Assembly: GCA_021785155.1 (NCBI GenBank)
Contig: JAJYGE010000349.1
Coordinates: 1 to 15,807, forward strand
Reading direction: 5' to 3'
Origin: Planctomycetota bacterium
Lineage (GTDB): Bacteria; Planctomycetota; Phycisphaerae; WQYP01
DNA: 15,807 bases
Shown here: in pieces, positions 251 through 15,807 of the stretch
How the letters are laid out: each line of letters starts with the position of its first letter
How positions within the stretch are numbered: the stretch's first letter is position 1
Position numbers and translations under genes: made by a program
The notes under the pieces: generated by a model
Told to the model about the DNA's origin: nothing
Database searches by the model: none
What the model saw: only the letters and a program-made list of their open reading frames with translations

Positions 251-295
251 AAAATTCAGCGGCGTTTTCGGCACCGCGATCTTGCAGGATTGCAC

Positions 296-742
296 ATGAT
301 TACACCATTTTCCAATAGCCGGATCGCGGCCTCTTATCAGCTCGGCGAAGAGATAATCTCTATTGACCTGCCCAGGCAGTCCGAAGGCTTCCGCCGGTTT
401 CTCGCGCACCTGATTGCCATTTATCAGAATCCCACGCCACAGGTGATCTTATTTGAAGAGCCGGAAAAGGGAATATTCCCGGGTGCTCTATCTCTGCTGG
501 CGGATCACATTAAATCCGCCAGTTTGAAGCTTGGTACGCAATTCATATTGACCACGCACAGTCCGCAACTTCTTGATGCGTTCCCGGGTGAGGCGATCCG
601 TTGGGTGAAATTCTCCGCCCAAGGAACCCAGATCGCACCGCTTAACCAAGACGACTTGCTTGCCCTGCGCGACGGACTGACGACCCCCGGTGAGTTTCTG
701 ACCGTGGCCGACCCGAGCGAGCCGGAGCCGGTACACGGATGA
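296..742 (+). pseudogene. AAA_21-type ATPase, C-terminal half only
   Basis: The 148 residues match the C-terminal half of AAA_21/SMC-like ATPases that pair with small effector proteins. An ABC-signature-like stretch (LPRQSEGFRRFLAHL) is followed by a Walker B motif (VILFEEPEKG, with the catalytic-type EE) and an H-loop (LTTHSPQLLDAF). The P-loop (Walker A) and about 200 N-terminal residues expected for the family are absent. The frame is open only back to a stop at 236-238, so nothing homologous precedes the ATG. The ATG at 296 was chosen because the other candidate, a TTG at 290, has no support; AGGA about 10 bases upstream could serve as a ribosome site. The end overlaps the next gene by ATGA, the usual arrangement of a translationally coupled pair. 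Without a P-loop the protein should not bind ATP normally. It is most likely a decayed gene, although a short expressed remnant cannot be excluded. Confidence 0.7.
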
Positions 743-1095
743 ATTCGCGCGCTGGAAATTTGGTGATCGCCCGTCAGGAAATGGAGTCATGGTTTATCGC
801 TGGTGCCAACTCGCTGAAAGGGGTGCGTGATGGTAACGGCCTGCTGCTTGGGGGAAATTCGCAGGCACCGAGCGGCGATCTGGAATCATCCCCGCGTGAC
901 GCCAAGGGTTGGCTCAATGTAAATATGCCACTGGGTTACAAACCAACCGCCGATCAGGTCCGCCTGGCACAGTGTGTTGATCTCACACTGATTCGCGATC
1001 GCAAGTTGCGATCATTTCAGCGTTTTGAAAACGCGGTCGCCCAGATACAAAGCGCCCTGACCTCTGGTCGGCATATTGCCACCCCAGGAATGTAG
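739..1095 (+). pseudogene. DUF4276-like protein, C-terminal part
   Basis: The 118 residues resemble the second half of DUF4276 proteins. They contain the conserved stretch VIARQEMESWFIAG and a terminal region with YKPTADQVRLAQCVDL followed by a SFQRFENAV-type end. Full-length members are roughly 200 residues or more and begin with a TOPRIM-like segment that is missing here. The start overlaps the ATPase stop by four bases (ATGA), consistent with the common AAA-ATPase/DUF4276 two-gene arrangement often found near defence genes. Both partners lack their N-terminal halves, so the pair is probably non-functional. The gene ends seven bases from the orphan 3' end of the radical SAM gene, which points towards it. 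The family call rests on pattern recognition and is moderately secure. Confidence 0.55.
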
Positions 1096-1102: not shown

Positions 1103-1223
1103 TCAACTGAAGAGTCCCAACTGCCTCGGTCCGGGCCGACAGAACGACGCCGATGACATTGCCGGATAATGCGTTTGCAATCCGGCCCGGCGGACGGAAA
1201 GCTCGAAGAGCGTTTCAAGCTGG
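1103..1223 (-). pseudogene. Orphan 3' end of the radical SAM gene (left copy of the direct repeat)
   Basis: Read on the minus strand, this piece encodes LETLFELSVRRAGLQTHY followed by a PAMSSASFCRPGPRQLGLF-type ending and a TGA stop. This is the same C-terminus as the radical SAM gene at the right end of the window, with one internal residue changed and a different last residue (S for A). The nucleotide repeat is 1110-1223 against 15193-15306: 114 bases with 6 mismatches and no gaps. Upstream on the minus strand (to the right, from 1224) the similarity stops abruptly, so no start or catalytic part remains. It is a duplicated gene fragment and not a gene. Confidence 0.85.
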
Positions 1224-1245
1224 ATCAGCCGGCTTTTGACACGTA

Positions 1246-3096
1246 TTACCATGTCGCAGCACCTCGCGATTTCATGTTTACAGCGTAGAGGCTGTGCGCA
1301 GTGGTTACGTAAAGTGTATGCCTGTTTTTTCCGCCAAAACAAATTCCTGTAAGGTGCCGACTGTTACCGTTGGGAACAGGTAATATCGCACAGCATGGAC
1401 CAACGCCTTGGCTGAGCACTTGCACGCCCATGCGCGTAGCCGCAAAGATATATCCGCTCTGATCCGCGCATAATTGGCTCGTGCCGCTGTTGGCCGCTGT
1501 TTCCGGCTGGTAGAGCCAATAGAACGGGATGCCGTAACGCAGCGTACCATCGGGTTGTATCCGATAGCTCATGGCAAAGTGGCTGGTACCCTCGGCTACA
1601 CAAAGCCAGTGATTGCCTGGCAGGGCGATCACACCAGTGGGACCATTGAGACCCTGGGCTACTTCCGTTGGCTTGCGGCCAGGGCGAGTCAACCATATTG
1701 TTCCCCTGGCGGTATTGGTGACGTACACATTGCCGTTCGGCATCACATAAAGATCATTTCCATGGATATTCGTCGCTACAACTTTGACCCTGCCTTGGGC
1801 GTTAACAGCCAGAATATCGCCGACGCCGGCATCGATGGCGTAAATTCGCCCGCCTGGTCCCATGGCAATGCCCCGGCTTCCAGGGCTTACTGCGGCGTAC
1901 AACGTGGCTATGCCGTGACTGAGGCTATAGATCTTTCCACTGGTGGCGCTCTGGGCAAAAATATGCCCCTTGTCGTCGGACACCAAGTCTCCAAGGCCCC
2001 CGACACGGCGCAATAGCTGCCGCCAGTGTGCCCCGGGCCGGCAAATTTGTTGGAGAGCTGGATTGCCGGACACACCGGCATGGATCGATTTGGGATGCCG
2101 GCCCTGCCAAACCCATCGCAAAGCGGCCGGATACGTCATAACGGCCATGGACCCTTGGTGGCTGGTGTATCCCCAAACATGGTGGACCTGGTAGCCCGCA
2201 AATTTCAAGGCGCTTTCCATGGCCCGCGTGTTGAGCCACCAATTACCCATTTCCGCCCCAGGCCAAAACTCATCATTACAGCCATCCCCCAGAAAAATTC
2301 GCAGGGGTTCGGGTGCGGTCTTGCGCACGAGAGTGGGATATTGATCAGCACCACGAATACCCACAAAAGTGCCATTGTATATAATCACACGACGAAAAAA
2401 ATCGGGATTATCAAAGGCAACGGTAAAAGCGCAGGTTCCACCCGAACTGCCACCAAAAAGACACCTATCGTTGGGGTTCTTAGACAGTAAAATGGGCAAT
2501 CCCGATGGAGTGCGAAGTCGCTCGACGGCGGGAATCACCTCCTGGATGATAAAACGTCCCATATTGTCATCTAGGGCGTCAAATTCAAAGCTGCGTTCGA
2601 CCCGTGCGTTGCTGTTCACCGGAATTGATGCGCCAGCCCGTACAGCCGCCAGCGCGGAATGCAGGCCGAAGCGGCCCTTACCGCTGACATGAGCGGCGGA
2701 TGGAGTTAAGCCACCCGGCAAGCCGATGCCGATGGTAATGGGCATTTGCTTTTTGTAAATCAAATTATTAAATGTCGTAAACGACCACTTTCCAAAAGTA
2801 TCCAGATGTACGAAAACGCAGGCTGGCTTTCGGCCTTTATACTCCGCCGGCACATAGACCTGAATGGTTCGGATCGTTCCGGGGAACACTTTGGAGTGCT
2901 TCATCTGAAACGTGAAGATGACGCCGTTGGGAACGCCGGGCTGCGGCAGTAGATTTTTTGCCGGCGGATACGCTTTGTTATACCACGCGTCGGGACCTCC
3001 CCGGTCCTGAGGCGGCAAAATCTTGGCTACAGCCAGAACCGTTTGGCAAGACCCCGCCAATATCGCTGTGAACAATAGGAACATGATTGGCTTCAT
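1246..3096 (-). CDS. Secreted esterase fused to an SMP-30/gluconolactonase-like propeller
   Basis: The protein has 616 residues in two domains. After a hydrophobic signal peptide (residues 1 to ~22), residues ~45-335 are an alpha/beta-hydrolase of the esterase D/feruloyl-esterase type (PF00756-like). The nucleophile elbow is GGSSGG (Ser ~217), an acidic loop is FLGDGCNDE (Asp 271 or 275), and the histidine loop is GYTSHQGS (His ~313). Residues ~350-616 form an SMP-30/gluconolactonase-like beta-propeller, with repeated blades such as YVMPNGNVYVTN and LCADQSGYIFAATRMGVQV. This fusion is known in planctomycetes. A role in removing acyl or feruloyl groups from hemicellulose is inferred. The start at 3096 was chosen over one 14 codons upstream because AAAGAGG lies nine bases before it and the signal peptide then begins correctly. 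The gene follows the GH2 gene by 44 bases, so the two are probably one transcript. A lipobox reading of LAGSC is possible but poor. Confidence 0.85.
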   Translation of the reverse strand: MKPIMFLLFTAILAGSCQTVLAVAKILPPQDRGGPDAWYNKAYPPAKNLLPQPGVPNGVIFTFQMKHSKVFPGTIRTIQVYVPAEYKGRKPACVFVHLDTFGKWSFTTFNNLIYKKQMPITIGIGLPGGLTPSAAHVSGKGRFGLHSALAAVRAGASIPVNSNARVERSFEFDALDDNMGRFIIQEVIPAVERLRTPSGLPILLSKNPNDRCLFGGSSGGTCAFTVAFDNPDFFRRVIIYNGTFVGIRGADQYPTLVRKTAPEPLRIFLGDGCNDEFWPGAEMGNWWLNTRAMESALKFAGYQVHHVWGYTSHQGSMAVMTYPAALRWVWQGRHPKSIHAGVSGNPALQQICRPGAHWRQLLRRVGGLGDLVSDDKGHIFAQSATSGKIYSLSHGIATLYAAVSPGSRGIAMGPGGRIYAIDAGVGDILAVNAQGRVKVVATNIHGNDLYVMPNGNVYVTNTARGTIWLTRPGRKPTEVAQGLNGPTGVIALPGNHWLCVAEGTSHFAMSYRIQPDGTLRYGIPFYWLYQPETAANSGTSQLCADQSGYIFAATRMGVQVLSQGVGPCCAILPVPNGNSRHLTGICFGGKNRHTLYVTTAHSLYAVNMKSRGAATW

Positions 3097-3140
3097 ACGG
3101 ATAAACCTCTTTACGAGTTGGTACGCATTCAATGACATCT

Positions 3141-5321
3141 TTATTTGTGGAACCCACTGCTTTTTCGGCTCAGTCCAGTTGATCGGTATACCCTGCCCAA
3201 TTCCACTCCTGCCGGCTTGAGATTGCCTTCAAAATCAATCACGGCGGTATTGGCGGTGCAAGGGAAAGCATCATGGCCCATCCACACCATAAACCCTCCA
3301 CAGGCTGGGAATCGGCTCAGGGCTGCTCTGGCGGCCAAGCCCAGCGCCGCTGCTTGCCGGGCCTGACTCCAGGCGACAAATTCCTCCAGATTCTCCGGCG
3401 CATGGCCCTTTTCCTGTACAAACTTGGGCCAGTCGATCCACCATGGATTGCGATTCCAGAGCGGATTTTCGGACGAACACGGGAAGGCCTTCAAATCACC
3501 CTTATATTTGCGTATGATCTCGGCAGAGCTGGCACCCGGTGCACCAAGTTCCGAATAGAACATGGAATCCCCCTTATCCCACAGTTCTTTCCAGTATCCG
3601 TCCACCGGCCCATCAAAATCCCATGGCCCATGGGTATCCCAGAATACGCCCTTGCCGCACTCATCTAAATTATTCGACAACCGCGGGCCAAAGGGACTGG
3701 TCTGCAGGAATCGCCGTCCGTGATCCAGTTTTTCGATTACCTCATAAAATCGTTTGAGAATCGGATGTCGGATCGTCAATGGTTCACGATGCTTGCCAGG
3801 GTTGATCCCGTTGAGATTGTTGGCCAATTCATTACCACCACACCATAACAGGAGTGCGGGATGATGCTGCCGCCGCTTGATGTACGATTCAGCAATTTGG
3901 CCCATTGCCTCCACGGAAGCCGGATCCGTCGGGGGATAGCAATCAATGCTGGAACTCGAAAGTGGGAATTCCTGCCAGAGCAAAATGCCCAGCCGATCAC
4001 ACTGATGATAAAAATATTCGGTTTCCAGAAAGGCCCCGCCCCAAACCCGCAGGATCTTCACACCCATATCATGGTACGCATTTAACCGCTTATCGTAATG
4101 TTCCTTGGTCAGGTCGGCAAAGTTGGGACGAATGGGCGTCCAATCAATTCCGCAGAGAAATATTTCCTTGCCATTAACCGCACAGAGATAACGATCCGCT
4201 TCCGGTACCACATCCAGATAGGCATTGGCGGTATTTTTTGCGCCTTTGTTTTTCCGCCACTCAATATTTCGGAAGCCCACCGTACGTACTTGACGATCAA
4301 TAAGATGCCCCTGGTCATTGAGCAAATCACACGTCAGGCTGTATAGTTTCTGCTCTCCGTGCCCATTAGGCCACCACCAGGCAACGGTTAAATCTTTCCA
4401 TTCCACGGGATGTTTGACCAACGCGGAAGCGGACATTTCCTCCTGATGTAACACCCCGGCGTCATCGGCCAGTGTCAACTGAATTTTGCTTCCTCCCCAG
4501 GCGGCACCAAACATTTTCAGTACACCCTTCCCGGAGGCCATGTCCACATCGGCCACCGCGCGGAATTCCCGTATTTCACCCGCTTCCACAACCTCCAGCG
4601 TGATGGCATCCCATATCCCCACCTGCACGAGACGGCTGACCCAGTCCCAGCCATAATTAAACCGCGGCTTCCACTTTTTCATGTGCGAGGTGTAACCAAG
4701 TTGTCCCAGCCAGCGCGGTGGTGGCTGAAAAAGAATCTCCAACACATTACCACTGGCTTTAAGATGCGGCCCCAAGTCGAAGTCCCAAGGATGAAACGAT
4801 CCTTCAAAACCCGCCACCAGGGTGCCGTTTAGAAAAACACCTCCCCGGTAATCCAAGCCCTCGCAATGCAATCGGAACTGTTTGCCGGAATGCACCCACG
4901 GATCCGGGATCGCGGTCTGATACACCCAGTCCAGATTCTCCACCCACTGGCAATCACGCGCATTAAGACCGATGTTCCAGTCTTTAATCAATCCGGCGCT
5001 CAAGAGCGCCAATTGAACCGACCCGGGCACAGATGCCGGGATTGGTCCGACCTTTTGACCTGTGGTTTGATGAATATCGGAAATGGATGCGGCCCCTCCC
5101 AATCTTTCCATGTAAGGCATATAACCGGCAAGCTGCCAGTGAAGACTTGACAGATCGTGCCTTTGTTTCGCTCCTGATGACGCGGCGGCTTGTACCGACG
5201 CCTCCGCTGTCGTCGCCAAGCCGGTTGGGCCAAGGCCTGCCGCGGCCACTGCCGTGGCCAACTGCAACACGTCCCGACGGGTCAATGCCGCTGGCGCATT
5301 CTTGCTTTTGCATGAATTCAT
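3141..5321 (-). CDS. GH2-family beta-mannosidase-like glycoside hydrolase with Tat signal
   Basis: The protein has 726 residues. The N-terminus carries a twin-arginine motif (LTRRDVLQLA, Arg15-Arg16) and an alanine-rich hydrophobic stretch, so the enzyme is probably exported folded. Residues ~60-240 form the sugar-binding jelly roll typical of GH2 (LDYRGGVFLNG, HPWDFDLG). An immunoglobulin-like domain follows to ~350, then a TIM barrel. Within the barrel, KILRVWGGAFLE and GILLWQEFP are characteristic of beta-mannosidases. The acid/base glutamate is Glu498 in WCGGNELA and the nucleophile is Glu591 in FYSELGAPG. The length is somewhat short for a beta-mannosidase (usually about 800-850), as the C-terminal accessory domains are missing. 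Exo-beta-glucosaminidase is the main alternative within the family. The start is supported by AAGGG before the ATG. The esterase follows 44 bases downstream. Confidence 0.88.
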   Translation of the reverse strand: MNSCKSKNAPAALTRRDVLQLATAVAAAGLGPTGLATTAEASVQAAASSGAKQRHDLSSLHWQLAGYMPYMERLGGAASISDIHQTTGQKVGPIPASVPGSVQLALLSAGLIKDWNIGLNARDCQWVENLDWVYQTAIPDPWVHSGKQFRLHCEGLDYRGGVFLNGTLVAGFEGSFHPWDFDLGPHLKASGNVLEILFQPPPRWLGQLGYTSHMKKWKPRFNYGWDWVSRLVQVGIWDAITLEVVEAGEIREFRAVADVDMASGKGVLKMFGAAWGGSKIQLTLADDAGVLHQEEMSASALVKHPVEWKDLTVAWWWPNGHGEQKLYSLTCDLLNDQGHLIDRQVRTVGFRNIEWRKNKGAKNTANAYLDVVPEADRYLCAVNGKEIFLCGIDWTPIRPNFADLTKEHYDKRLNAYHDMGVKILRVWGGAFLETEYFYHQCDRLGILLWQEFPLSSSSIDCYPPTDPASVEAMGQIAESYIKRRQHHPALLLWCGGNELANNLNGINPGKHREPLTIRHPILKRFYEVIEKLDHGRRFLQTSPFGPRLSNNLDECGKGVFWDTHGPWDFDGPVDGYWKELWDKGDSMFYSELGAPGASSAEIIRKYKGDLKAFPCSSENPLWNRNPWWIDWPKFVQEKGHAPENLEEFVAWSQARQAAALGLAARAALSRFPACGGFMVWMGHDAFPCTANTAVIDFEGNLKPAGVELGRVYRSTGLSRKSSGFHK

Positions 5322-5631
5322 CTTGAACCCTTATACTCAATATAACATTGCAAGGCGTCCCATCTGAACAGAGGTGCCATTCCATGTCGTCAATGTTCCC
5401 GCCACACTGCCGGCCGCCAATCTACAAAAATCCCTTCGCCGCATGAAACCATATCCTTACATTTGGGGCGGCCGAATTAATTAGTACCAGAAATTATATG
5501 TTGCGCCACGGTGGACGATACACAATCTAGTGCTTCGTCACACCAACATTTTAGGATGGCCGCCTCTGAAAGGGCACAACCTTCATAGCCAAGGTTCCTC
5601 AGCAACCCTAACATTTTGCTGTGACAGGGCA
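5322..5631. other. 310-base intergenic region before the GH2 gene
   Basis: No gene is visible. The region separates two genes of the same strand and may hold a promoter for the GH2/esterase pair: on the minus strand a TATAAT lies at 5498-5493, but without a convincing -35 box. Two small perfect inverted repeats lie near the preceding gene's end. One is AACCTT/AAGGTT at 5578-5596 and the other is CAGCAA/TTGCTG at 5600-5621. Neither is followed by a T-run, so they are poor terminators and could equally be protein-binding sites. Confidence 0.4.
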
Positions 5632-6123
5632 CTAGCGCCGATACACCAGGTACAGTTTGCTTACTTCCAATTTATTAACCCCTGTGCCGCTGCCGTTGTT
5701 CAGGCCCACCGATATAAATTTCGTATCGGCCAAGCTGGTGACCGGTGGGCCTTTCCCCATGGGATCCAGCCGCGACAGCGGAACCAGCACGGTATGCCAT
5801 TTTCCATCAGCGGCGATAATCGGTCCTGCGAGCGTGCAATAATCGGGGACGCCGCCCTTGTCGAACACCATGAGCCGTACCATGGCCGACCTGGCCACCC
5901 GCGCCCGCAGCAGCACCGCCACCACCCGTTTGGCGTGAATGTCGCCGGGCAGCGGGAATTGCGGATACGCCCACGGATTGCCGCCATGAAACGCCACTTT
6001 CATCCCCCAGCCGCCGCCATTGGGCGCGAAAAACAACATATCAGCGTTGGCGGTGATATTTTTTCGCCAACGCGCCAGTTGGCTGATATGCAGTCGCGTA
6101 TGTTCCGGATAACTGGTCAAATA
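5632..6123 (-). repeat. Jelly-roll domain repeat, copy 1
   Basis: This coding repeat covers the last 163 codons and stop of its gene and matches 6950-7435 at DNA and protein level. By eye the proteins are about 70% identical. Several DNA blocks are unchanged, including a 37-base identical block at 5780-5816 matching 7101-7137. The level of identity indicates a fairly recent duplication or gene conversion. Confidence 0.85.
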
Positions 6124-6888
6124 TTGGCCTACAACGTTAGCGGGCGCGGGTCCCGTGAGTTTGAACCCCGCTACCCTCCCCAACGCGCCGTTTCCTCCAA
6201 ATCCGACTGCGGTGATGACGGGGTTCGTTGGGTATACGAAGGGCCTGGCCCTGACGGCCTTGCCGTCAACATACCACTGCGCCGTCCAATGAGCGGCAGC
6301 GGTATCGAGCACCACGCTTATGGTCGCCGGAGACAGGACTCCGTTGGGTTCTCCCAAATTAGTTCCAGCAAGGGCGGGGCCGGTGAAATATTGGCCGCCG
6401 CCGCCAGTTGTGGCTGTGGCGTTCGGCTCTTGGAGCATCCACGGACCTGCGTCGATGTTACCAAAAGCCGTACCGCCCGTAGTAGTGCCACTGTAAAAAC
6501 TCTGAATGGTTTGGGCCGCCTGTCCATTCTGCACAAAACCCACCGCCAGCCAGTGGGAGGTCTTCGGATTGTTGTCGGGACTGGCCGTGACGGTCAGCGT
6601 GTACACTCCGCCAGCCACCGGTGTGAAGGGAAGAAAGGCATTCTCGGCTTGTTTTCTGACAATCGAGCCATCCGCCTTCCAATCCGGTCCCGCAATCCAC
6701 TTGGCGTGGGTCAGGTCCGTGGCCGGTCTTGTGCCATTAAGTGGCGCTGCGGGACCGCCTGGAAAACTATCCGTGTAGATCGTCATTGCTGGGGACGGGG
6801 GCGCACCCGCGGCCAAGGCGGAACCGGCTGCAATCAAGGCCGACACCGTGGCTGCCAAAGCGGAAAGCTGGAAAGACTTAAGCAACAT
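5632..6888 (-). CDS. Secreted two-domain protein: PEP-CTERM-protein-like front half plus jelly-roll domain
   Basis: The protein has 418 residues. It begins with a signal peptide (MLLKSFQLSALAATVSALIA, cleavage near ALAAG). Residues ~35-245 resemble the mature part of the PEP-CTERM protein at 12542-13312: both share YxDxFPG, LxGTxPATD, a W, a FTPVxGxVYTL segment and a GPW segment. Residues 256-418 are a jelly-roll, CBM-like domain that is nearly a copy of the C-terminus of the neighbouring glycosidase, sharing GGGWGMKV, PWAYPQFPLP and the final GVNKLEVSKLYLVYRR. There is no catalytic signature and no PEP-CTERM anchor. A polysaccharide-binding role outside the cell is inferred. The start at 6888 is chosen because GAGGAG lies seven bases upstream; an alternative start five codons earlier would swallow that site. 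It follows the glycosidase by 61 bases in a likely operon. Confidence 0.75.
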   Translation of the reverse strand: MLLKSFQLSALAATVSALIAAGSALAAGAPPSPAMTIYTDSFPGGPAAPLNGTRPATDLTHAKWIAGPDWKADGSIVRKQAENAFLPFTPVAGGVYTLTVTASPDNNPKTSHWLAVGFVQNGQAAQTIQSFYSGTTTGGTAFGNIDAGPWMLQEPNATATTGGGGQYFTGPALAGTNLGEPNGVLSPATISVVLDTAAAHWTAQWYVDGKAVRARPFVYPTNPVITAVGFGGNGALGRVAGFKLTGPAPANVVGQYLTSYPEHTRLHISQLARWRKNITANADMLFFAPNGGGWGMKVAFHGGNPWAYPQFPLPGDIHAKRVVAVLLRARVARSAMVRLMVFDKGGVPDYCTLAGPIIAADGKWHTVLVPLSRLDPMGKGPPVTSLADTKFISVGLNNGSGTGVNKLEVSKLYLVYRR

Positions 6889-6949
6889 AAATTGACTCCT
6901 CAATAGTTCCTCAATTACTTAATCGCCATGCCATGAACAAGCCAGCAGC

Positions 6950-7435
6950 CTAGCGCCGATACACCAGGTACAGCTTGCTTACTTCCAATTTATTAACCCC
7001 TGTGGCGGTGTCGTTGTTTAGCCCCACCGATATAAATTTTGCGCCTGCCAGATTATTCAGGTGTACGGGGCTGTGTCCCATGGGAGTCAGGCGCGGCAGG
7101 GGAACCAGCACGGTATGCCATTTTCCATCAGCGGCGAGAATCGGTGCCCTTATTGTGCCATAGGTGGGTCGTCCCGGCTTAAACACCAGCAAACGCACCA
7201 TCGCTGATCGGGCCACTCGCACCCTTAGCAGCACATCGGTGACATTTTTGGCGTCAATTCCTTCAGGCAGTGGGAATTGCGGATACGCCCAAGGATCGCC
7301 GCCATGGAACGTCACTTTCATCCCCCAGCCGCCGCCCTTGGGAACAAAAAAGGAAGTGTCACCGTCCGCATTTTTTCGCCACCGCGCCAATGCACTGATT
7401 TGCAGTTGTGTATGGTGCGGATAACGGGCCAAAAA
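6950..7435 (-). repeat. Jelly-roll domain repeat, copy 2
   Basis: This is the partner of 5632-6123 and encodes the last 161 residues of the glycosidase. The two copies lie in the same orientation at the 3' ends of adjacent genes. They differ by small indels near the start of the domain and around residue 90 of it. In this copy the domain is fused to a catalytic module, the typical position of a carbohydrate-binding module. Confidence 0.85.
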
Positions 7436-9499
7436 TTCGCGAATGGTGCCTTGCAATCGGATAGGAATCGCCAGCGGACTTATGGCTGGCGTGTTGGCGT
7501 CGGCCGGCATGGCTTGTCCGGTCACCACCAGATAATGGTAATGCACAATCCCCAAGCCCATAGCTTTCGCTAAATGGTTTAGTTTCCATTGCACTAACAC
7601 ATGCCCGTGCGCAGGTATTTGCCGCAGGATCTTCAACAGGATGGGTTTATGACCCGCCACACGATGGGCGCTGTGCAATAGCAACTTTACGGTTATTGCA
7701 TGATCGGCAAGGTTCCATACTCGAACCGCCAAGGGCGTCTTGGAGGCGCTGGAAAGCACATAGGCTTCGGCGGACCAGTCGGCGTGCGCGTGCGCCAATT
7801 GCAGAATGATTGGAGAATGACGCTGCGGCGTGGGTGGAGGCTGACGGGAAATCGCGTAAAGCCGCCCCGCTTCGGTGTCGGTTTTAATTTTTCCGGCAAA
7901 GGCGCTGGCCGGGCCGCGCAGATAAACCAGGCCGTCGGGAATCGGGACTGCTTTGTTGGCACCACGGCGCAGCACGCGACCATCAATACCGCGAACGCTG
8001 ATATCGTTTAACCCCAGGCTAAGTGTCGCGCGGGGATTCGCCGTGCCGGTATAAACAACCGCGGTGCGCCGATCACCCCGGGCAAACACCGGTGCCAGGA
8101 GTACCGCATGATCGTTGATTTCCAGATTGCCCACATAAGACCAGCCGGAGAGTTCCGCCACGCAGTTGACATACGCCGCCATGCTCCGCAGGGGCGTGTG
8201 TTCCCGGCCCATCATACCAAAATTATCTGCGCCCTGAACAAAAAAGGGATAAACGAAAGCGAAGTAACGCGCAATGCCACAGGCGCGGGCTTCCACAGCT
8301 TTCATGGTGATCCACAGCGCGGAAGTCATGTCCGGTCCCCGATGAGGACGGGCCCTGCCGGCGGGCCAAGGCTTGCCGCTTTCGGTGATCCACAGCGGCA
8401 TGCTTGGCCGACCATAATCCGCAAGCCACCGCCGGTAGGCCGCCACCGCCGAGGGAATTTCGGTGGGGGCATAGTAATCATGAAAACTGATGACATTTAC
8501 CTGCTGTAATAAACCGTTCAGCGCACAATCGCGTTGGAAGAATCCGGGCAGGGACAGTCCGAATACGCCGCCGACCAGCGGAACATGAATATCCGCCCTC
8601 TGGAAACTATACGCGATGGCTTTGACCATCGGAAGTAATTGATCTGGTGGAAAGCCCGCTCCGTCCGGTTCGTTCCATGTCTCCAATGCTCCCCAGTCGT
8701 GGTGAAGATATCGCCCGATGAACGCCCAACTCTGGGCTGTTTGGATCAGATTGATCGGATACGGTGAGTCGCTGTCCGGGTGCGTCCACACAGGCGCATC
8801 GGAAAACATCTGCAACATCGACACATCATTATTAAAGTAATCATTGGCCAACCGTCCATACCGGCAAACAGTGTTATTGCGATATACCCCCGGCAATGGA
8901 TTGATCTGGGCCCAACTCAATCGCTCACGCGACATGCCGATGCCGCTACGGCGTAAAATCCTAATCATCCCCACCCGCACGGCCTGGCGAGTCGCCGGGT
9001 GATTGACCAGCCAGGACATGGCACTATCCATGGCGAAAAAGTGCCCCGCCGGTCCATGATGGGCCGCAATGGACACCACGCCGAACTTTTGCCTGCTTGC
9101 TGGAAAATCCACCTGATAGAATCCACGCGGCAAACGCACCGGCAAATCAAAAGTGTTATCGACTGCGGTTAGAGTTCCAGCCGCAACCGGACGTCCCCAA
9201 TAGTTTGTGATATTCCAGCGTAGCGCTCGTGGCGGCGGCGTGCCGCTTATTGTCCATGACAGCACCGCCGGTTTATTCGGCGTGATAACAAACCGTGTCA
9301 TGTCAACGACTCGTAACCGCGGTGGCGGCGGCTTTGGGGAGGAACTAGTTTTGGCGGACAACGGACCTGCACGGCCCTGCAAGCACGACATGCAGATGCC
9401 TAACGCCAGCACGACGGCAACCACCAAAGCCGGGCCGCCTGGCTCCACGGTTAATCGGCCGGAGCGTTTGACCGGGGGGATGTAACTGAACATTGGCAT
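6950..9499 (-). CDS. Clan GH-A-like glycoside hydrolase (GH39-like) with C-terminal jelly-roll domain
   Basis: The protein has 849 residues. A basic start and hydrophobic segment (residues ~22-40) form a signal peptide or anchor, followed by a proline/serine-rich linker. Residues ~65-145 form an N-terminal beta-domain. Residues ~150-430 look like a TIM barrel of clan GH-A. The predicted acid/base is Glu277 in ETWNEPD and the nucleophile is Glu373 in PLWITESG, with GMSRERLSWAQINP and ISFHDYYAP on other strands. Beta-sandwich regions follow, and residues 689-849 are the jelly-roll domain shared with the next gene. The pattern recalls GH39 (beta-xylosidase/iduronidase type), but the family cannot be fixed by eye, so the substrate is unknown. 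A hemicellulosic sugar is inferred from the neighbours. Met1 and Met3 are both possible starts; neither has a strong ribosome site. Confidence 0.78.
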   Translation of the reverse strand: MPMFSYIPPVKRSGRLTVEPGGPALVVAVVLALGICMSCLQGRAGPLSAKTSSSPKPPPPRLRVVDMTRFVITPNKPAVLSWTISGTPPPRALRWNITNYWGRPVAAGTLTAVDNTFDLPVRLPRGFYQVDFPASRQKFGVVSIAAHHGPAGHFFAMDSAMSWLVNHPATRQAVRVGMIRILRRSGIGMSRERLSWAQINPLPGVYRNNTVCRYGRLANDYFNNDVSMLQMFSDAPVWTHPDSDSPYPINLIQTAQSWAFIGRYLHHDWGALETWNEPDGAGFPPDQLLPMVKAIAYSFQRADIHVPLVGGVFGLSLPGFFQRDCALNGLLQQVNVISFHDYYAPTEIPSAVAAYRRWLADYGRPSMPLWITESGKPWPAGRARPHRGPDMTSALWITMKAVEARACGIARYFAFVYPFFVQGADNFGMMGREHTPLRSMAAYVNCVAELSGWSYVGNLEINDHAVLLAPVFARGDRRTAVVYTGTANPRATLSLGLNDISVRGIDGRVLRRGANKAVPIPDGLVYLRGPASAFAGKIKTDTEAGRLYAISRQPPPTPQRHSPIILQLAHAHADWSAEAYVLSSASKTPLAVRVWNLADHAITVKLLLHSAHRVAGHKPILLKILRQIPAHGHVLVQWKLNHLAKAMGLGIVHYHYLVVTGQAMPADANTPAISPLAIPIRLQGTIREFLARYPHHTQLQISALARWRKNADGDTSFFVPKGGGWGMKVTFHGGDPWAYPQFPLPEGIDAKNVTDVLLRVRVARSAMVRLLVFKPGRPTYGTIRAPILAADGKWHTVLVPLPRLTPMGHSPVHLNNLAGAKFISVGLNNDTATGVNKLEVSKLYLVYRR

Positions 9500-9532
9500 G
9501 CCTGATGAGCCTCACGCAAAATAACAAATTTC

Positions 9533-9561
9533 TTTAACGACACTATATTACGTTTAACGTC
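9533..9561. promoter_or_regulatory. Direct repeats 20 bp apart plus small palindrome upstream of the GH-A-like gene
   Basis: TTTAACGAC at 9533-9541 and TTTAACGTC at 9553-9561 match at 8 of 9 positions and start 20 bases apart, close to two helical turns. AraC-family dimers typically bind half-sites spaced this way. The second overlaps a perfect odd palindrome (ACGTTTAACGT, 9550-9560). The sites lie 34-62 bases upstream of the glycosidase start. A role as an operator for the regulator at 13885 is inference. Confidence 0.35.
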
Positions 9562-9660
9562 GATTTTGGGTTACTCACACCGCAAATTCTTTCGTCCCGC
9601 CATTCCCGATGGACGCAGGTCTGTTGCCACGGGGATGTGAGCGCCGCTTATGTAATCTGT

Positions 9661-11262
9661 TCACGGGCACGCGCGGACCTCTCCCCACGGCGCTGATAGG
9701 GCCTTGCGCCTCCGCCCGATCAGCAACATCCCCACACCACCGGTGACAAATATCAACGGCGTGGCCGGTTCGGGCACCGCAGGCGGGTCCAAGAGCGACA
9801 CATTTGACACATCAACAGTGTCATCTATTCCCGCCGCGCTATTGTTGAGGAACTCAATGTTGGTCGATCCTGAAATCGCGGTGAAATTCAGGAAAAATGG
9901 TGTGAAGGTCGAGTCGGTTATGGCAGGTGACAAAGTGATTATCTTGCGGCCGTGCGTCGCGTCAGTGAGAATCACCTCCAGCACAGCGTTCGTGTCACCG
10001 CCCCTTTGTGCCGCGTCGAAGGCCAGCGTGTAGGTTTGGCCAGCGGAGGTGGCTACGATCTGGGATATGAAAGCGCCCTTGCCCTGAAGAAAACTGAAGT
10101 CGCTCACGCCGGCGGTACTTGAAGGTGCAAAGGGCTGATAGCCGGTGCTGCCGTAGACCGCCGTGTCCGGCCCATTAACGCCGGTGTTCCCGTCGCTTGA
10201 GTTCCAGCCGGTCGGAGCTGTCGGGTTAGCCCCGGCGGAATACCCCGGTGCTGCGGTGTACGCCGCCGCATTCGCCGAGAAAACCCCATTGCTGATCATA
10301 CTGGCACTGGTCGAGAAGACGGCGGGTGTTTGCTGTGAGATCAGGGTGGGGCCGCTTTGTTGTGTACCGACCGCAACCGAAAAATCGTTATTCAGGATTT
10401 CGCCTGGGTACGAGGCAAGCCCGTTGTCCACCACATGCGTTACCCCCAGCGTCCCCGCCGGTGCCCCAGCGGAAACAAAGCCATTAGGATACGTGCCATA
10501 CCCCTCTTGGAAACCCACCGGTGTGGTATAGAATATGCCGATGTTATCGCCGGTATCAACATTGCCGATCCACCCATTTGAGGTGATGGTTGGTTGCGGC
10601 CAAGTTGGCGACCCGGTAGCCTCCAGCACAGTTCCATTTGGGCCCGCGCCCATAAAGGCGTCGGTGTAATCCGAGTAGAGAACGGGCATCTCGGTGCCTA
10701 CTTGGTACGTCCCCGGCTGGTAGTCATAACTGGTATAATGAAAACTGGCGACCCCTTGGGAATTGATACGGACGTTCTCCACGTAAACCCAGTCGGTTGG
10801 ATTGCCCGTGTCAAAATCCAGAGGTGTGATGACCGCCTGAAATTGGTTGGCGGTGGCCGACCATGTCACCACCGGGCTACCCACCTCGGCAAACTGGCTG
10901 CCATTGGGGTGCTGATAATAGGGTTGGTTCCCATACGCTCCACCTTGGGTGGGGTTGAACATCAACTGCTGGCTGCCATTGATATATTGCGACAGGAACT
11001 GATCCGTCTGCAACTCCTGGCCCACATCATGGGCAGAGACCATATTGAGACCATTGGCTACGTTGGTGTCGCTGATGCTGGTTACCACCGCGCCCCAAGC
11101 GAGGTCAAATGTTACCGACAGCCCGCCGTTGGAAATCGTTGCATAGCCACTTGAGCCCAACGCGCTTGGCGTGCTGGCACCCGCTGCGAATCCCAACGCA
11201 ACGGTTACGCTGACGGACATTAGAACCCGTAGAGCCCCTGTATTTTTAGAAAACCCATGCAT
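9661..11262 (-). CDS. PEP-CTERM protein with beta-sandwich and galactose-binding-like domains
   Basis: The protein has 533 residues. After a signal peptide (residues ~1-36), residues ~40-310 form a beta-rich domain with NGGLSVTFDLAWGAVVTSIS, ANGLNMVSAHDVGQELQTDQ and NPTQGG. It resembles mutarotase-like sandwiches in carbohydrate-active proteins, but the family is not recognised. Residues ~325-490 look like a CBM4/galactose-binding fold (TAPTGWNSSDG, FISQIVATSAGQTYTLAFDA, DDTVDVSNVSLLDP). The C-terminus carries the sorting signal VPEP (496-499), a hydrophobic helix and GRRRK, which an exosortase would process to release or anchor the protein at the surface. Thirteen residues follow the basic cluster, more than usual. 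The ATG at 11262 was chosen because a TTG 12 codons upstream would add a charged stretch before the signal peptide. A role in surface capture of polysaccharide is inferred. Confidence 0.75.
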   Translation of the reverse strand: MHGFSKNTGALRVLMSVSVTVALGFAAGASTPSALGSSGYATISNGGLSVTFDLAWGAVVTSISDTNVANGLNMVSAHDVGQELQTDQFLSQYINGSQQLMFNPTQGGAYGNQPYYQHPNGSQFAEVGSPVVTWSATANQFQAVITPLDFDTGNPTDWVYVENVRINSQGVASFHYTSYDYQPGTYQVGTEMPVLYSDYTDAFMGAGPNGTVLEATGSPTWPQPTITSNGWIGNVDTGDNIGIFYTTPVGFQEGYGTYPNGFVSAGAPAGTLGVTHVVDNGLASYPGEILNNDFSVAVGTQQSGPTLISQQTPAVFSTSASMISNGVFSANAAAYTAAPGYSAGANPTAPTGWNSSDGNTGVNGPDTAVYGSTGYQPFAPSSTAGVSDFSFLQGKGAFISQIVATSAGQTYTLAFDAAQRGGDTNAVLEVILTDATHGRKIITLSPAITDSTFTPFFLNFTAISGSTNIEFLNNSAAGIDDTVDVSNVSLLDPPAVPEPATPLIFVTGGVGMLLIGRRRKALSAPWGEVRACP

Positions 11263-11456
11263 GATCAACTTTCTTTTACAGTAACCGCTCCCGGGCAAGT
11301 GTGTGGTGCATTCCGATTTACGGAATTATCTGCATCCATTACTGCGGCCAGCTGCCCCGGCAGGCCGGCATGCGCCACAAAGGGCAACAACGCGGTGGAG
11401 GCGTGGCCGTGAACGGTTGTCTTTTACATCAACAACCCTTCTCGTCACCTGCGGGA
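11263..11456. other. 194-base spacer between pseudopilin and PEP-CTERM genes with inverted repeats
   Basis: Two perfect 6-bp inverted repeats are present: ATTCCG/CGGAAT at 11310-11326 and GGTTGT/ACAACC at 11415-11437. The second lies just past the pseudopilin stop but lacks a T-run on the minus strand, so it is at best a weak terminator. The first could be a regulator site. No gene is seen. Confidence 0.35.
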
Positions 11457-12449
11457 TTACTGTTCGATGTTCGTCCCCAAGTTTGGATTGACAACATTGA
11501 ACACTCTTAACCCGGTTGTCCCGGAGACGTTAATCTGTCCCGGCAACGAGGGGGGAACTTGATTGACAGGGATTTCCGCAGCGTGGCCATCAAAAAATAC
11601 CGCGTTGGCCCAACCGCTGCTGGCCGAGGTCTGCCCGTGCCGGTACCGCATACCAACGCCAAATCCAGCATTTGGATAGTCGTTATTGGTATTCCACCCC
11701 GATGCCATGCCTTGTGACGATACTTGATCCGTCAAGGGCCAGCTAAGTCCGTTCCACGCGTTCTGAAACCAATAGAACTCGGCTAGTCCCACACTGCCGG
11801 TGGGCATCGACTGGTTGGCGTCGCCGATGGCGACTTTTTGGCCTGGATTGACAATATTGGAGGCCTTAAACGTGGTTAACTGGGGTGTGCCGCCCCCCAA
11901 AATCCCGCTTCCGCCGGGCTGAATACATGGCAAAAAGAAATTTGGGTTGCAAGCGTAGGTTGTAATCTCCTCTGGGGCATAGACATCGCTGGCATTGCCC
12001 GGATTCTGGTACAACACCGGCAAGAGGGAACTTGGACAAACAAACATCTGCGCAAACGCTGTGACCAGAGTTTCCTCCTGCGCGGGAGTTATCGTGCTTG
12101 GCTGGCCAAACCACGCCCCCGCAAAATTCTTCGGGTCAATGTTGTGTATATAACAGAAAAGAAGCGAGTCCCACGCATCCTGCCCCCAGTAGTCGATATT
12201 GGGAGATCCACTGTCATAGCCGTAAGGGATCGCATCTTCGAAGCCGCCCTCATACTCGGCCAGCATTTGCCCCTGGGACCGAAGATTCGCCAGGCACACG
12301 GTGGCAAGGGCATCCTGCCTGGCTCTGGCCAGCGCCGGCAGCAGTAATGCAATCAATAAAGCTATGATTGAAATCACCACTAAAAGTTCCACCAAGGTAA
12401 AACCGTGTAGGACTTTACGAGAGTCACCGACCATACGACTGGTATTCAT
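11457..12449 (-). CDS. Prepilin-type (type II pseudopilin-like) protein with C-terminal RHG...FDGH motif
   Basis: The protein has 330 residues. It opens with a type IV prepilin leader, cleaved after Gly16 in LHGFTLVELLVVISIIALL. The conserved Glu lies at position +5 of the mature protein (Glu21), followed by a long hydrophobic helix. The globular part ends with YRHG (His271) and FFDGH (Asp287-Gly288), the signature found in the large planctomycete/verrucomicrobial families annotated as prepilin-type or DUF1559-like. A prepilin peptidase would process it, and the protein would assemble in or at the inner membrane. The start is set by GGAG seven bases before the ATG; a longer reading adds 13 residues without support. 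Paralogues of this type often sit beside glycosidase genes in planctomycetes, and their job there is not known. A part in an export or adhesion structure is inferred. Confidence 0.85.
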   Translation of the reverse strand: MNTSRMVGDSRKVLHGFTLVELLVVISIIALLIALLLPALARARQDALATVCLANLRSQGQMLAEYEGGFEDAIPYGYDSGSPNIDYWGQDAWDSLLFCYIHNIDPKNFAGAWFGQPSTITPAQEETLVTAFAQMFVCPSSLLPVLYQNPGNASDVYAPEEITTYACNPNFFLPCIQPGGSGILGGGTPQLTTFKASNIVNPGQKVAIGDANQSMPTGSVGLAEFYWFQNAWNGLSWPLTDQVSSQGMASGWNTNNDYPNAGFGVGMRYRHGQTSASSGWANAVFFDGHAAEIPVNQVPPSLPGQINVSGTTGLRVFNVVNPNLGTNIEQ

Positions 12450-12480
12450 AAAAATTCTCCAAACTTTGGGCACAAGGCCC

Positions 12481-12539
12481 GAAATCAAAAGCGACGGGGC
12501 GCACCGGACCGTCCGGAAGGCGTCCCATCGCCAACGTCG
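12481..12539 (-). terminator. Strong hairpin with T-rich tail between PEP-CTERM and pseudopilin genes
   Basis: Nested arms are visible: CGACG (12492-12496) with CGTCG (12535-12539), GGGGCGC (12496-12502) with GCGTCCC (12520-12526, one mismatch), and CCGGAC (12504-12509) with GTCCGG (12511-12516). On the minus strand the stem is followed by CTTTTGATTT. It begins right after the PEP-CTERM gene stop and ends before the pseudopilin ribosome site. It may act as a partial terminator or a 3' stabiliser that makes the first gene the most abundant one. Confidence 0.5.
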
Positions 12540-12541
12540 TG

Positions 12542-13312
12542 TTACCCGTTCCGGCGGGCCGCACGCCTGCGGCCGATCAACAATAATCCCAATCCGCCGA
12601 CGGCGGACAGCCCCAGCGTGGTGGGCTCCGGCACGGCGGTTAGCTGGAAATTGCTGACGGAACCAGGTTCTCCATTAGTATCGATACCGACATAAGCGAT
12701 ATTCGTAGGGTTGCTTCCCACGGCGTAGGTATCAGTAATCTCTAACTTTCCGTTGTAGTACCCCTGAAACGTCCACTGGCTGCCTTCGGTGTTCAGAACC
12801 AGCGAAGAAGTCTCCGGTGAAGTGGTACTCGTGTAACCGCCAACGCTGGTGGCACCCGGTCCGGGGGAAAATGCGATTTGACCATTGCCCCTGACGATGG
12901 TCCATGGGCCACCACTGGTGTACATGGGTGTCGACGAATTGGCATCCGCAAAGCCCAGCGCTATCCAATTGCTATTAAGGCCGGTCGGATCCAGCGTCGC
13001 CGAAAGAGTGTAAACATTCCCACTTACCGGGGTAAACGACAACAGGGCATCAGCGTTAGTGGAGGTATTCGTGGTCGAGCCATTCGCGGCCCAGCCGCCG
13101 CTGCTGAGTGCCAGTGGGGCGCTCCAAGTGGCGGCGGTGGCGTCCGTCGCCGGGCTGGTGCCGTCGAGCGCTGCAGTAGAACTCCCCGGAAAATTATCCG
13201 AGTAGATGACACTGGCCGAGGCCGTTCCGGCCAGTCCGACAGCCACCATCGCTGCGAGCGCCGCAGCCGCAAAGGAACAACTGCGAGAAATCGATCGACG
13301 ATTGAAAAACAT
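12542..13312 (-). CDS. PEP-CTERM sorting-domain protein, first gene of the cluster
   Basis: The protein has 256 residues from the preferred start. A signal peptide with an arginine-containing n-region (MFFNRRSISRSC, then an alanine-rich core ending TASA) is followed by a beta-rich domain of about 190 residues. This domain is related to the front half of the protein at 5632-6888 and contains YSDNFPG, LDGTSPATD, FTPVSGNVYTL and GGPWTIV. The C-terminus has VPEP (227-230), a glycine/leucine-rich helix and GRRR (ending ~250), the exosortase sorting signal. The start at 13312 places GGAAAGAG eight bases upstream and gives a normal signal peptide. A second in-frame ATG at 13426 also has a good AAGGA site and would add 38 polar residues, so the start is not certain. 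Function is unknown; surface display of a glycan-binding domain is inferred. Confidence 0.75.
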   Translation of the reverse strand: MFFNRRSISRSCSFAAAALAAMVAVGLAGTASASVIYSDNFPGSSTAALDGTSPATDATAATWSAPLALSSGGWAANGSTTNTSTNADALLSFTPVSGNVYTLSATLDPTGLNSNWIALGFADANSSTPMYTSGGPWTIVRGNGQIAFSPGPGATSVGGYTSTTSPETSSLVLNTEGSQWTFQGYYNGKLEITDTYAVGSNPTNIAYVGIDTNGEPGSVSNFQLTAVPEPTTLGLSAVGGLGLLLIGRRRAARRNG

Positions 13313-13693
13313 AAACGACTCTTTCCGTGCCATAATGGATCTGTGTGAATTGTCCATTGTCCGAATGGACGACGGTTTGCCGCAACCATCTGCCGCAGAT
13401 GTGACGATACTTGTTTTGAAATTCATAACGTGCTTCCTTATTTAAGCAACCACTTTGTTCCCCCACTCCACGCCAACCGCACGGCTGGCAAAAATGAAGT
13501 TGAGAACACCTTGAAGAAAACCCAAGTCGGCCCGCCTTGGCCAACTCACTGGAAAAACCTTCCCGCCTTATAACCTCCCTTCCCTAACTCATGCCGGCGG
13601 CGGAGCTGCTGCAGCAACCGCGAGGACGCGAAGAATATGACTCCCTACAGGCTTCGCGTAAATGAAGGCGAAGATCCTTCCGACCAGCCACTG

Positions 13694-13709
13694 CTGACCG
13701 AATGGTCAG
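13694..13709. promoter_or_regulatory. Perfect inverted repeat, possible operator
   Basis: CTGACC and GGTCAG flank a 4-base GAAT centre. This is a compact symmetric site of the size bound by dimeric regulators. It lies between the two divergent genes, about 175 bases before the regulator start. A role in binding is inferred only from symmetry and position. Confidence 0.3.
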
Positions 13710-13753
13710 GAAAAGAAAGCCGATCCATAAAACTTAGCTTAAACGCGCTATGT

Positions 13754-13798
13754 TCATAAAGCAACGATTTTTTTTGACAATCGTTCGCTATTTTATGA
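13754..13798. promoter_or_regulatory. Imperfect inverted repeat upstream of the regulator
   Basis: The arm TCATAAAGCAACGATT (13754-13769) is complementary to 13779-13798 (AATCGTTCGCTATTTTATGA) apart from four extra bases in the right arm. The right arm overlaps the first 28-bp direct repeat. The arrangement suggests a regulator site made of related half-sites (CGTTC-type cores) in both orientations. Confidence 0.4.
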
Positions 13799-13875
13799 CG
13801 TATCCGTAAGATCGTTCATACCCCAACAGCACACACCAAAGGCCCCATTTGACAACGGTTCGCTATTTTACGAAA
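13773..13875 (+). repeat. Pair of 28-bp direct repeats upstream of the regulator (probable operators)
   Basis: Two copies, 13773-13800 and 13848-13875, agree at 23 of 28 positions and share TTTGACAA and GTTCGCTATTTTA. Their starts are 75 bases apart, and the second copy ends nine bases before the regulator's ATG. The copies carry TTGACA, which could be a -35 box, but no -10 lies at the right distance. Binding by the regulator itself, giving autoregulation, is the simplest reading. If so, the downstream copy would block the ribosome site or early transcription. Confidence 0.5.
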
Positions 13876-13884
13876 CTGACATTG

Positions 13885-15054
13885 ATGAAACGACCTTCGT
13901 GCCAGTCCATGGAACCTCGACCTTTTCGCCGTGTACTGCTTCTGATGGGCTGGTATGCCGTCGGCATTCACCGCGGAATCGCCCGTTATGCCCGGGAAGC
14001 TGGCTGGTCATTGGATGCCATGGCGGCTCATCAGACAGATTCCAGCCCTGTCTGGCAGCCGGACGGGGTAGTATGCATACTTGGCGTCAGCCGCTGGATG
14101 GATAGACTGGTAAAGAAACTTGAACTCCCGACGGTTAACATTGGGTATCATACCACACAGCCGCTAACGCGAATCACCGCCGACAACCGCCTTGTCGCGG
14201 CTTTGGCTGCGGAGCATTTTACACAACGCGGTTTCAAACATATTGCGCTTTATTACAAGGGCCTTTTCAATCCCGGTGAATCGGAGCGACGGGAAGCGAT
14301 AGAACAAGCCGTTGCTCAGCGCGGACGCCAATTTCATCTCATTGACGCCAGTGTCATTAACCGTCGTAAGCCGACGCCCGAAGCCATGTTCGGCCTGCTC
14401 CGACGAACGCTCGTCAAGTTACCCAAGCCATTGGGGATTCTGGGATGGATGGACGACACGGCCGTCGAAATCATAACGGCGTGTCGGATGGAAAACCTAC
14501 GGGTGCCCGAACAAGTGGCGGTTTTAGGCATCGGCAACGACGAACTACGGTGTGAATTCGCCCCGGTTCCCCTATCGAGTATTGATGAAAATTTAGAAGG
14601 AATTGGCTATACCGCCGCCCGAATCTTGGACCGAAAAATGAGAGGCGATCCTGTGTCACTCAAGCCAGTTTTAGTTCCACCGGTAGGCGTCATCACCCGC
14701 CAGAGCTCCGACATTCTTGCCATTGAGCATGTGGAAGTCGCAACCGTCTTAAGAAACATCTGGACCCATTTTCGCGAGCCAATCAGTGCGCAGCACGTTG
14801 CGGCCAACGTTCCGATGTCCTATCGTCGACTGCATGACGCATTTGTGAAGCATGTCGGGCACAGCATTTTTGACGAGATTCTTCAGCACCGGCTGGAATA
14901 CGCCTCCAAGCTCATGGCCGAAACTAACGACAAACTTGAGGTGATTGCCCGCGCGTCCGGGTTTTCCAACATTAATCATTTTGGCAAGGCCTTCTTCCGA
15001 AAGAACCGAACTACGCCAAGTGTATTCCGTAAACATGCTCATAATCGAAAATGA
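13885..15054 (+). CDS. XylR-like AraC-family transcriptional regulator (sugar-binding domain plus AraC HTH)
   Basis: The protein has 389 residues. Residues ~15-275 form a LacI/periplasmic-binding-protein-like ligand domain. It has the start RRVLLLMGWYAVGIHRGIARYA, the segment ITADNRLVAALAAEHFTQRGFKHIA and the segment VAVLGIGNDELRCEFAPVPLSSID, the pattern of the E. coli xylose regulator. Residues ~285-385 form an AraC DNA-binding domain with two helix-turn-helix units; the second (LEVIARASGFSNINHFGKAF) is very close to the family consensus. It is transcribed away from the glycosidase cluster, the usual position of a local activator that senses the sugar released. The ATG at 13885 was chosen; an earlier TTG at 13849 lies inside the upstream repeat and is unlikely. 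No strong Shine-Dalgarno sequence is visible before any candidate start. The ligand is unknown. Confidence 0.88.
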   Translation: MKRPSCQSMEPRPFRRVLLLMGWYAVGIHRGIARYAREAGWSLDAMAAHQTDSSPVWQPDGVVCILGVSRWMDRLVKKLELPTVNIGYHTTQPLTRITADNRLVAALAAEHFTQRGFKHIALYYKGLFNPGESERREAIEQAVAQRGRQFHLIDASVINRRKPTPEAMFGLLRRTLVKLPKPLGILGWMDDTAVEIITACRMENLRVPEQVAVLGIGNDELRCEFAPVPLSSIDENLEGIGYTAARILDRKMRGDPVSLKPVLVPPVGVITRQSSDILAIEHVEVATVLRNIWTHFREPISAQHVAANVPMSYRRLHDAFVKHVGHSIFDEILQHRLEYASKLMAETNDKLEVIARASGFSNINHFGKAFFRKNRTTPSVFRKHAHNRK

Positions 15055-15185
15055 TTCCCATTTGTCATGTAAGACCACTCGATCACGCAATGTCTTGGCC
15101 GGCAAGCGTTGTCCAATGTAAACGGCTGGCATGGCGGGCTATTTCTTGGCCCGAGCGGTATTGCATGTACACTACGGACGGTGAA

Positions 15186-15807
15186 TTACGCAAAGAGGCC
15201 CAACTGCCTTGGCCCGGGCCGACAGAATGACGCCGATGACATTGCCGGATAATGCGTTTGCAATCCGGCCCGTCGGGCGGAAAGCTCGAAGAGCGTTTCA
15301 AGCTGGTCGGCAAAAATTCCTTCCCCCTTCATACGCGTGGCAAAATTGGAATCATTGAGTTTGCCGCCCCGCATGGAGCGAATGCGATTGACGATTTTCT
15401 CCGCCCGGTCCGGCTTGTGTTCCCGCAGCCAATTTTGGAATAAATCCTTGACCGCATACGGCAGCCGCACCGGCGTATAGCCGGCGAATGTCGCCCCAGC
15501 CGCCGCGGCGGCCTTGAGAATATCCGGCATCTGTTCATCGGTTAAGCCCGGTATCACCGGTGCCACCAGCACGCCCGTTGGAATGCCGGCTTGTGACAGC
15601 GCGGTGATGGCCGCCAGCCGGCGCTTGGGCGAACTGGTGCGCGGCTCCATCATTGCGATCAATTCCGTTTGCAGCGTGGTAATGGAGATAAACACCGCCA
15701 CCGCATGATGTCGGGCCAATTCACTTAGCAGATCAATATCGCGGGTGATCAGATGGTTTTTGGTGATGATCGAAACCGGATTTTTGAATTCCGCCAGCAC
15801 TTCCAGA
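15186..15807 (-). CDS. PA0069/Rv2578c-like radical SAM protein, C-terminal part (runs off the window)
   Basis: About 206 residues of the C-terminal part are visible, and the frame stays open to the window edge (LEVLAEFKNPVSIITKNHLI). Recognisable stretches are ITKNHLITRDIDLL, VFISITTLQTELIAMMEPRT, GIPTGVLVAPVIPGLTD and the terminal RAGLQTHYPAMSSASFC, which together match the SPL-like radical SAM group. The CxxxCxxC iron-sulfur motif and the start lie beyond the window. The exact reaction of this group is not established. Its last 114 bases (15193-15306) are the right-hand copy of the direct repeat, and this copy is continuous with the rest of the gene, so the gene looks intact. It converges with the regulator, 131 bases away. 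Confidence 0.85.
   Translation of the reverse strand, partial: LEVLAEFKNPVSIITKNHLITRDIDLLSELARHHAVAVFISITTLQTELIAMMEPRTSSPKRRLAAITALSQAGIPTGVLVAPVIPGLTDEQMPDILKAAAAAGATFAGYTPVRLPYAVKDLFQNWLREHKPDRAEKIVNRIRSMRGGKLNDSNFATRMKGEGIFADQLETLFELSARRAGLQTHYPAMSSASFCRPGPRQLGLFA
15193..15306. repeat. Direct repeat, right copy (in the radical SAM 3' end)
   Basis: This is the partner of 1110-1223: 114 bases with 6 mismatches, mostly near the gene's 3' end. A central block is fully identical. Similarity stops at 15306/1223 on one side and near the stop codon on the other, so the repeated unit covers about the last 38 codons only. Confidence 0.9.

Follow-up and report, generated by a model that had tools for sequence, protein, structure and literature searches.

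The stretch analysed here, called the window below, comprises 15,807 nt of a Planctomycetota contig (JAJYGE010000349.1, assembly GCA_021785155.1; Phycisphaerae, WQYP01 in the GTDB lineage). At its right end is the 3′ part of a radical SAM gene, whose frame is open to the window's edge (the 5′ part of the gene lies outside), and whose last codons recur near the left end as an orphan fragment. Between these two copies are seven large ORFs on the minus strand and a divergent regulator on the plus strand (Table 1), as a preliminary description of this DNA had stated. It had also stated that no integrase is present, which holds for the ten window proteins scanned (the remaining small ORFs lay outside the scan): none has an integrase or recombinase domain. 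Rfam and tRNA scans of the window gave no matches.

Table 1. Features of the window, with strand and the kind of evidence used.
Positions	Strand	Feature	Basis
1..218	.	Stretch outside the AAA relic, without blastn match in L001 and L005; REP-like palindrome at ~50-138	blastn
219..742	+	AAA ATPase relic (HEC-01A-like): start region and codons 234-380, middle gone relative to L005	domain scan, blastn
739..1095	+	DUF4276 relic (HEC-01B-like), in-frame internal deletion relative to L005	ORF, blastn
1103..1223	-	Orphan 3′ end of radical SAM, own stop included, adjoining DUF4276 as in L001 and L005	alignment, blastn
1246..3138	-	Esterase-like and SMP-30/gluconolactonase-like protein	ORF, domain scan
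3141..5321	-	Glycoside hydrolase family 2 (GH2) protein	domain scan, structure-database matches
5526..5635	.	MITE-like repeat, ~29-nt terminal inverted repeats, CTAG ends	genome matches
5632..6903	-	Protein with C-terminal domain common to next gene	ORF, window self-comparison
6950..9499	-	Large protein, glycosidase-like by eye only	ORF
9661..11298	-	PEP-CTERM protein; choice-of-anchor C and DUF642 matches weak, below cut-off	domain scan
11457..12488	-	Protein with prepilin-type N-terminal methylation motif	domain scan
12542..13426	-	PEP-CTERM protein	domain scan
13773..13873	+	26-nt direct repeat, two copies (13773-13798, 13848-13873)	window self-comparison
13849..15054	+	XylR-like regulator: periplasmic-binding-like domain and AraC-type HTH	domain scan
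15127..15184	+	Remnant of PEBP gene 3′ end, MAGYFLARAVLHVHYGR-stop, convergent with the radical SAM gene	blastn, translation
15186..15806	-	Radical SAM gene, 3′ part of open frame; contains repeat copy 15193-15306	ORF, domain scan

The solved structures that best match the GH2 protein are mostly beta-mannosidases; the large protein encoded at 6950-9499 is without a sequence match in Pfam, NCBIfam or the PDB. The C-terminal domain that it has in common with the product of the adjacent gene (5632-6128 against 6950-7440, 77-89% DNA identity in blocks) suggests a duplication or conversion. The cluster plausibly serves polysaccharide use. The 26-nt direct repeat precedes and overlaps the annotated start of the regulator, has partial matches in genome G026, and is a possible operator of this divergent gene; the exact operator-like pattern is absent from all 199 of 199 loci. 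Its second copy would read MTTVRYF, so the true regulator start may lie further in.

Everything between the copies had been taken for one functional unit, and this can be upheld only in part: the genes and their regulator are there, but in the relatives compared, the nearest homologues of these genes are scattered over separate places. In these loci, homologues of the GH2 protein (84-89%) and of the 9661-11298 protein (56-68%) are found in G001, G003, G004, and G026, and those of the 6950-9499 protein (63-72%) in G001 and G026. Near some of them are weaker relatives (31-47%) of other cluster proteins (e.g., contigs G001:C109 and G004:C324); this general type of cluster therefore also exists outside the window. 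A regulator homologue in G010 (69%) heads genes for a PEP-CTERM-like, a prepilin-like, and a large protein at another place, comparable by eye. The esterase gene, at the cluster's left end, has a match in 6 of the 28 genomes of the family, the best in G027 and G020 (66%), and none in G001-G005, G025, or G026. The whole cluster at a radical SAM gene end was found in no genome searched.

Two repeats in the window are of a dispersed kind. A MITE-like element of about 109 bp lies just downstream of the 5632-6903 gene; six more full-length copies (80-86%) are in G004, and G002 and G026 have one copy each among the matches listed, with end pieces in G004 and G026. The REP-like palindrome at 50-138 occurs at no fewer than 16 places in G005 and at least 23 in G025 (several in a row on its contig C3), and at a few or more in other genomes. 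Both were considered as ends of the insert and rejected, being dispersed repeats of which neither is at its border.

The direct repeat at the ends of the cluster is as first described, with six differences in 114 bases: 1110-1223 and 15193-15306, in the same orientation at a spacing of 14083, align without gaps over 114 nt, of which 108 are identical (94.7%). The local alignment score of the pair is 198, against 34 or less for the left stretch shuffled 20 times and run against window 2001-15000 on one strand. Homology of the orphan to the gene end reaches 1106, its own stop codon being 1103-1105; on the other side it breaks sharply at 1223/1224. Each copy is the other's best match, at 94.7% as against at most 83.3% in 11 other genomes (the best of these is G026, with 83.3% to either copy). 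Five of the six differences between them are synonymous third-position changes, an excess with a binomial P of 0.018 against a third, for only six differences; the one remaining gives the orphan V in place of A. Such a pattern is consistent with two gene ends that were both functional while they diverged and were joined later, and less so with a duplicate that no longer worked. Placement of a crossover within the 114 bp, by eye from the six differences, was dropped as too weak.

The radical SAM gene does not abut the cluster directly. Its 3′ part within the window is intact, and past its stop, before the regulator, are the 58 bp of a PEBP gene remnant. Positions 15131-15184 read MAGYFLARAVLHVHYGR-stop, against MAGYVLARATLHVHYGR at the end of the PEBP gene of locus L002, and blastn alignments of the window's right end to L002-L004 run past the radical SAM stop to 15127, into PEBP. 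The PEBP gene of L001 has a PF01161 match, and the radical SAM homologue of that locus belongs to the PA0069 family (NF033668). We take the PEBP gene to be YbhB/YbcL-like.

A scan of contigs with the radical SAM protein gave 45 loci, among them L001-L006 from close Planctomycetota or Phycisphaerales MAGs (81-91% protein identity). Two junctions are found past the gene's 3′ end. In L002, L003, L004, and G025 it abuts a convergent PEBP gene (P-type), and in L001 and L005 a single radical SAM gene runs directly into a DUF4276/AAA pair, without a cluster and without a second copy of the gene end (D-type); alignments to the window pass unbroken from DUF4276 into this single gene, over 876-1223 in L001 and 761-1222 in L005. 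A cluster-free site of this form, with one 114-bp unit followed by the AAA/DUF4276 pair, was what the preliminary description had predicted. The insert between the direct repeats thus has an empty counterpart in both relatives, and relative to L001 and L005 the cluster is an insertion.

The gene order is radical SAM, DUF4276, AAA, PEBP, CdsA-like in L001, and radical SAM, DUF4276, AAA, M42 peptidase-like in L005 (CdsA-like and M42 peptidase-like are names that we assigned from the sequences). Both outer neighbours occur with either junction: the CdsA-like gene with D in L001 and with P in L002 and L003, the M42 peptidase-like gene with D in L005 and with P in L004 and G025. A radical SAM match is present in 21 of the 28 genomes of the family. 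Four of these are P-type (G002, G003, G004, and G025) and two D-type (G001 and G005); besides G026, there are 14 others, with no PEBP or DUF4276/AAA match in flanks of up to 1.5 kb a side at E ≤ 1e-4. It is the sequence past the stop that separates the two types, not the last codons of the gene, which were ruled out as a mark: the orphan's TTCAGTTGA end occurs in both L001 (D) and L004 (P), and a different one is found in L005 (D). L005 also has a cobalamin riboswitch (L005:9203-9453), upstream of a ribonucleotide reductase-like gene on the opposite side of the radical SAM gene.

The DUF4276/AAA pair at the window's left end is reduced. What is left in comparison with L005 are AAA residues 234-380, DUF4276 residues 124-232, and short stretches around each start; with both genes internally deleted, the pair is not intact as a HEC-01 system. 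The L005 proteins have HEC-01B (DUF4276) and HEC-01A (AAA) as their best PADLOC models, although the AbiLi model also matches the AAA protein, and on these similarities the pair in the window is a decayed HEC-01-like candidate defence cassette. Relatives of DUF4276 are present in 9 of the 28 genomes, several of them elsewhere than at the radical SAM end (43-47% identity); this gene end is thus not the pair's only site.

One further genome has part of the window's right side. Contig C196 of G026 aligns to window 13645-15506 with 91% identity over 1,871 aligned columns. In it are the regulator (95% identical as a protein) and, next to this, the PEBP remnant known from the window; the radical SAM piece that follows, about 318 bp long, is truncated and has an in-frame stop. 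By 60-base bins, identity to the window is 88-100% over the regulator and 73-90% over the radical SAM piece; as the piece is truncated and less window-like than the regulator, the history of this block is not simple. The next gene, cut by the contig end, encodes a different protein from that of the window's cluster, so the G026 cluster is shown to be the same only at its regulator end. At about 570 bp beyond the radical SAM piece, a serine recombinase is represented by its C-terminal part (Pfam Recombinase, zinc ribbon). Its frame ends in a 41-base stretch resembling, by eye, the 3′ half of a tRNA (L088:1353-1393), and this stretch may serve a different element as its att site. No tRNA was detected by ARAGORN in the contig that carries it. 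The recombinase was considered as the cluster's own, but is disfavoured, since the tRNA-like end makes a separate element more likely. A 23-base match of window 15107-15129 at other places in G026 and G002 was also rejected as an element end, its surroundings having no repeat element in common.

The intact gene, then, keeps the PEBP remnant and the orphan keeps DUF4276; two natural versions of one junction are thus brought together in the window. The site is probably a recombinant of these two versions of the DNA downstream of a housekeeping radical SAM gene, and the 114-bp repeat most likely represents two gene ends rather than an att core. We infer the order and direction of events, and a RecA/illegitimate mechanism, as follows. 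In version P the radical SAM gene abuts the convergent PEBP gene, and in version D the DUF4276/AAA (HEC-01-like) cassette. The regulator end of the sugar cluster would have come to rest within the PEBP gene of a P-type ancestor, sparing just the final codons of that gene; the same PEBP remnant lies beside the regulator in both the window and G026. Recombination may then have taken place between DNA with the order radical SAM, PEBP remnant, regulator, cluster and a D-type chromosome, with either of the two as the incoming partner. At one end this would have been homologous recombination in the radical SAM gene, and at the other an illegitimate join at 1223/1224, so that a single event could explain both borders. 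The old gene end would have been pushed aside, still attached to its old neighbours DUF4276 and AAA, with no need of a site-specific recombinase.

The orphan does adjoin DUF4276 in the manner of L001 and L005, and the gene homology does stop at 1223/1224. Since window 1-218 reaches no recognised backbone gene, the exchange may have gone in either direction, bringing the cluster into a D-type chromosome or a D-type piece to the cluster. Arrival by homologous exchange was among the options that the preliminary description had offered, and is the one favoured here, given the two junction types and the cluster-free L001 and L005. Its other option, a cargo island of att type that had lost or borrowed its recombinase, fares less well.

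Under that option the cluster would be a site-specific island in the radical SAM 3′ end, and the 114 bp an att region. It accounts for an insertion at a gene's 3′ end with the frame kept, for direct repeats at both ends, and for the cluster-free site found as predicted. The repeat edge, however, is the natural end of the gene, and the side belonging to the insert carries 58 bp of PEBP, a chromosomal neighbour in the relatives; in L001 and L005 the junction is occupied by DUF4276/AAA, with no second gene end there. Nor was the repeat found beside other islands, a search that had been proposed at the outset: in the 28 genomes, 7 gave a match at E ≤ 1e-3, at one place each, always the radical SAM locus. 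The sensitivity of this search was limited: G005 and other, more distant genomes are known to possess the gene, yet their versions of its end went undetected, and diverged repeats could have escaped it too. With no recombinase among the scanned proteins, a piece of a neighbour gene on the insert side, and no reuse of the repeat found, site-specific integration becomes distinctly unlikely.

The main rival is a single-crossover (Campbell-type) integration, in which a circle with the cluster and a 3′ piece of the radical SAM gene recombines with the chromosomal gene and duplicates the piece. The anatomy would be the same, the G026 regulator block does end in a truncated radical SAM piece of the kind required, and circularisation by ligation followed by a single crossing-over of linear DNA is reported for E. 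coli (PMC3240628). No circle or plasmid home has been seen, however (matches of the regulator in 134 plasmid records are all below 60% identity), and the G026 piece is followed by the serine recombinase region, not by the esterase end of the cluster; we consider this explanation unlikely. That the assembly fused two strains at the radical SAM gene, as a chimera, is very improbable. The window may derive from a metagenome, and both haplotypes occur in related MAGs, but the copies differ by six bases where identity would be expected of such a join, and no repeat of the window covers the suspicious one at 1223/1224. A tandem duplication of the gene end that arose locally in a single lineage, and was split later by independent insertions, would explain why the two copies are each other's closest relatives, but hardly why their neighbours differ (PEBP remnant and DUF4276, each present in other genomes), or why five of the six differences are synonymous in an orphan free to decay. 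The number of differences is small and the copies are mutual best matches. We give this explanation a very low probability.

Beyond the single site, the radical SAM 3′ end might be a standing exchange point that works without a recombinase, where defence pairs, PEBP, and sugar clusters swap, and where a portable homology arm, consisting of a piece of the gene end, travels with the cargo. This is a speculative extension to which we give a low probability; the truncated radical SAM piece in G026 might be an example of such an arm. The recombinant reading of the window itself points to homologous recombination as a means by which metabolic clusters and defence cassettes can replace each other at a single gene end. 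It also provides a clear natural case, in an uncultured group, of a border repeat that resembles an attachment site but for which two allelic gene ends are the better interpretation; such a site could mislead island finders that work from flanking repeats.

In integrase-driven islands in gene 3′ ends, the insert lies between two copies of the gene end and the reading frame is kept. The site described here has the same arrangement, but differs from them in that no recombinase was found among the ten proteins scanned, the repeat is not a core site, and the insert side carries a PEBP remnant.

The type of event proposed is already known from other bacteria, and the site is a new example of it. 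Homology-facilitated illegitimate recombination in transformable bacteria and, at low frequency, in E. coli combines one homologous and one illegitimate join (PMC3240628); the same pair of joins is proposed for this locus, where it is deduced from one natural site. The displacement arrays of T6SS effector-immunity genes and the orphan 3′ ends of Rhs genes come closest. There, according to PMC5361080, DNA enters at a conserved gene, anchored by homology, and the old gene end or old neighbour is left downstream as an orphan, with homology-facilitated illegitimate recombination as the proposed mechanism. Homology-anchored entry and an orphaned old end are what we propose here as well. Unlike in those systems, the anchor in the window is a housekeeping-type radical SAM gene whose product is hardly changed, and the cargo is a sugar cluster that would have displaced a decayed candidate defence pair.
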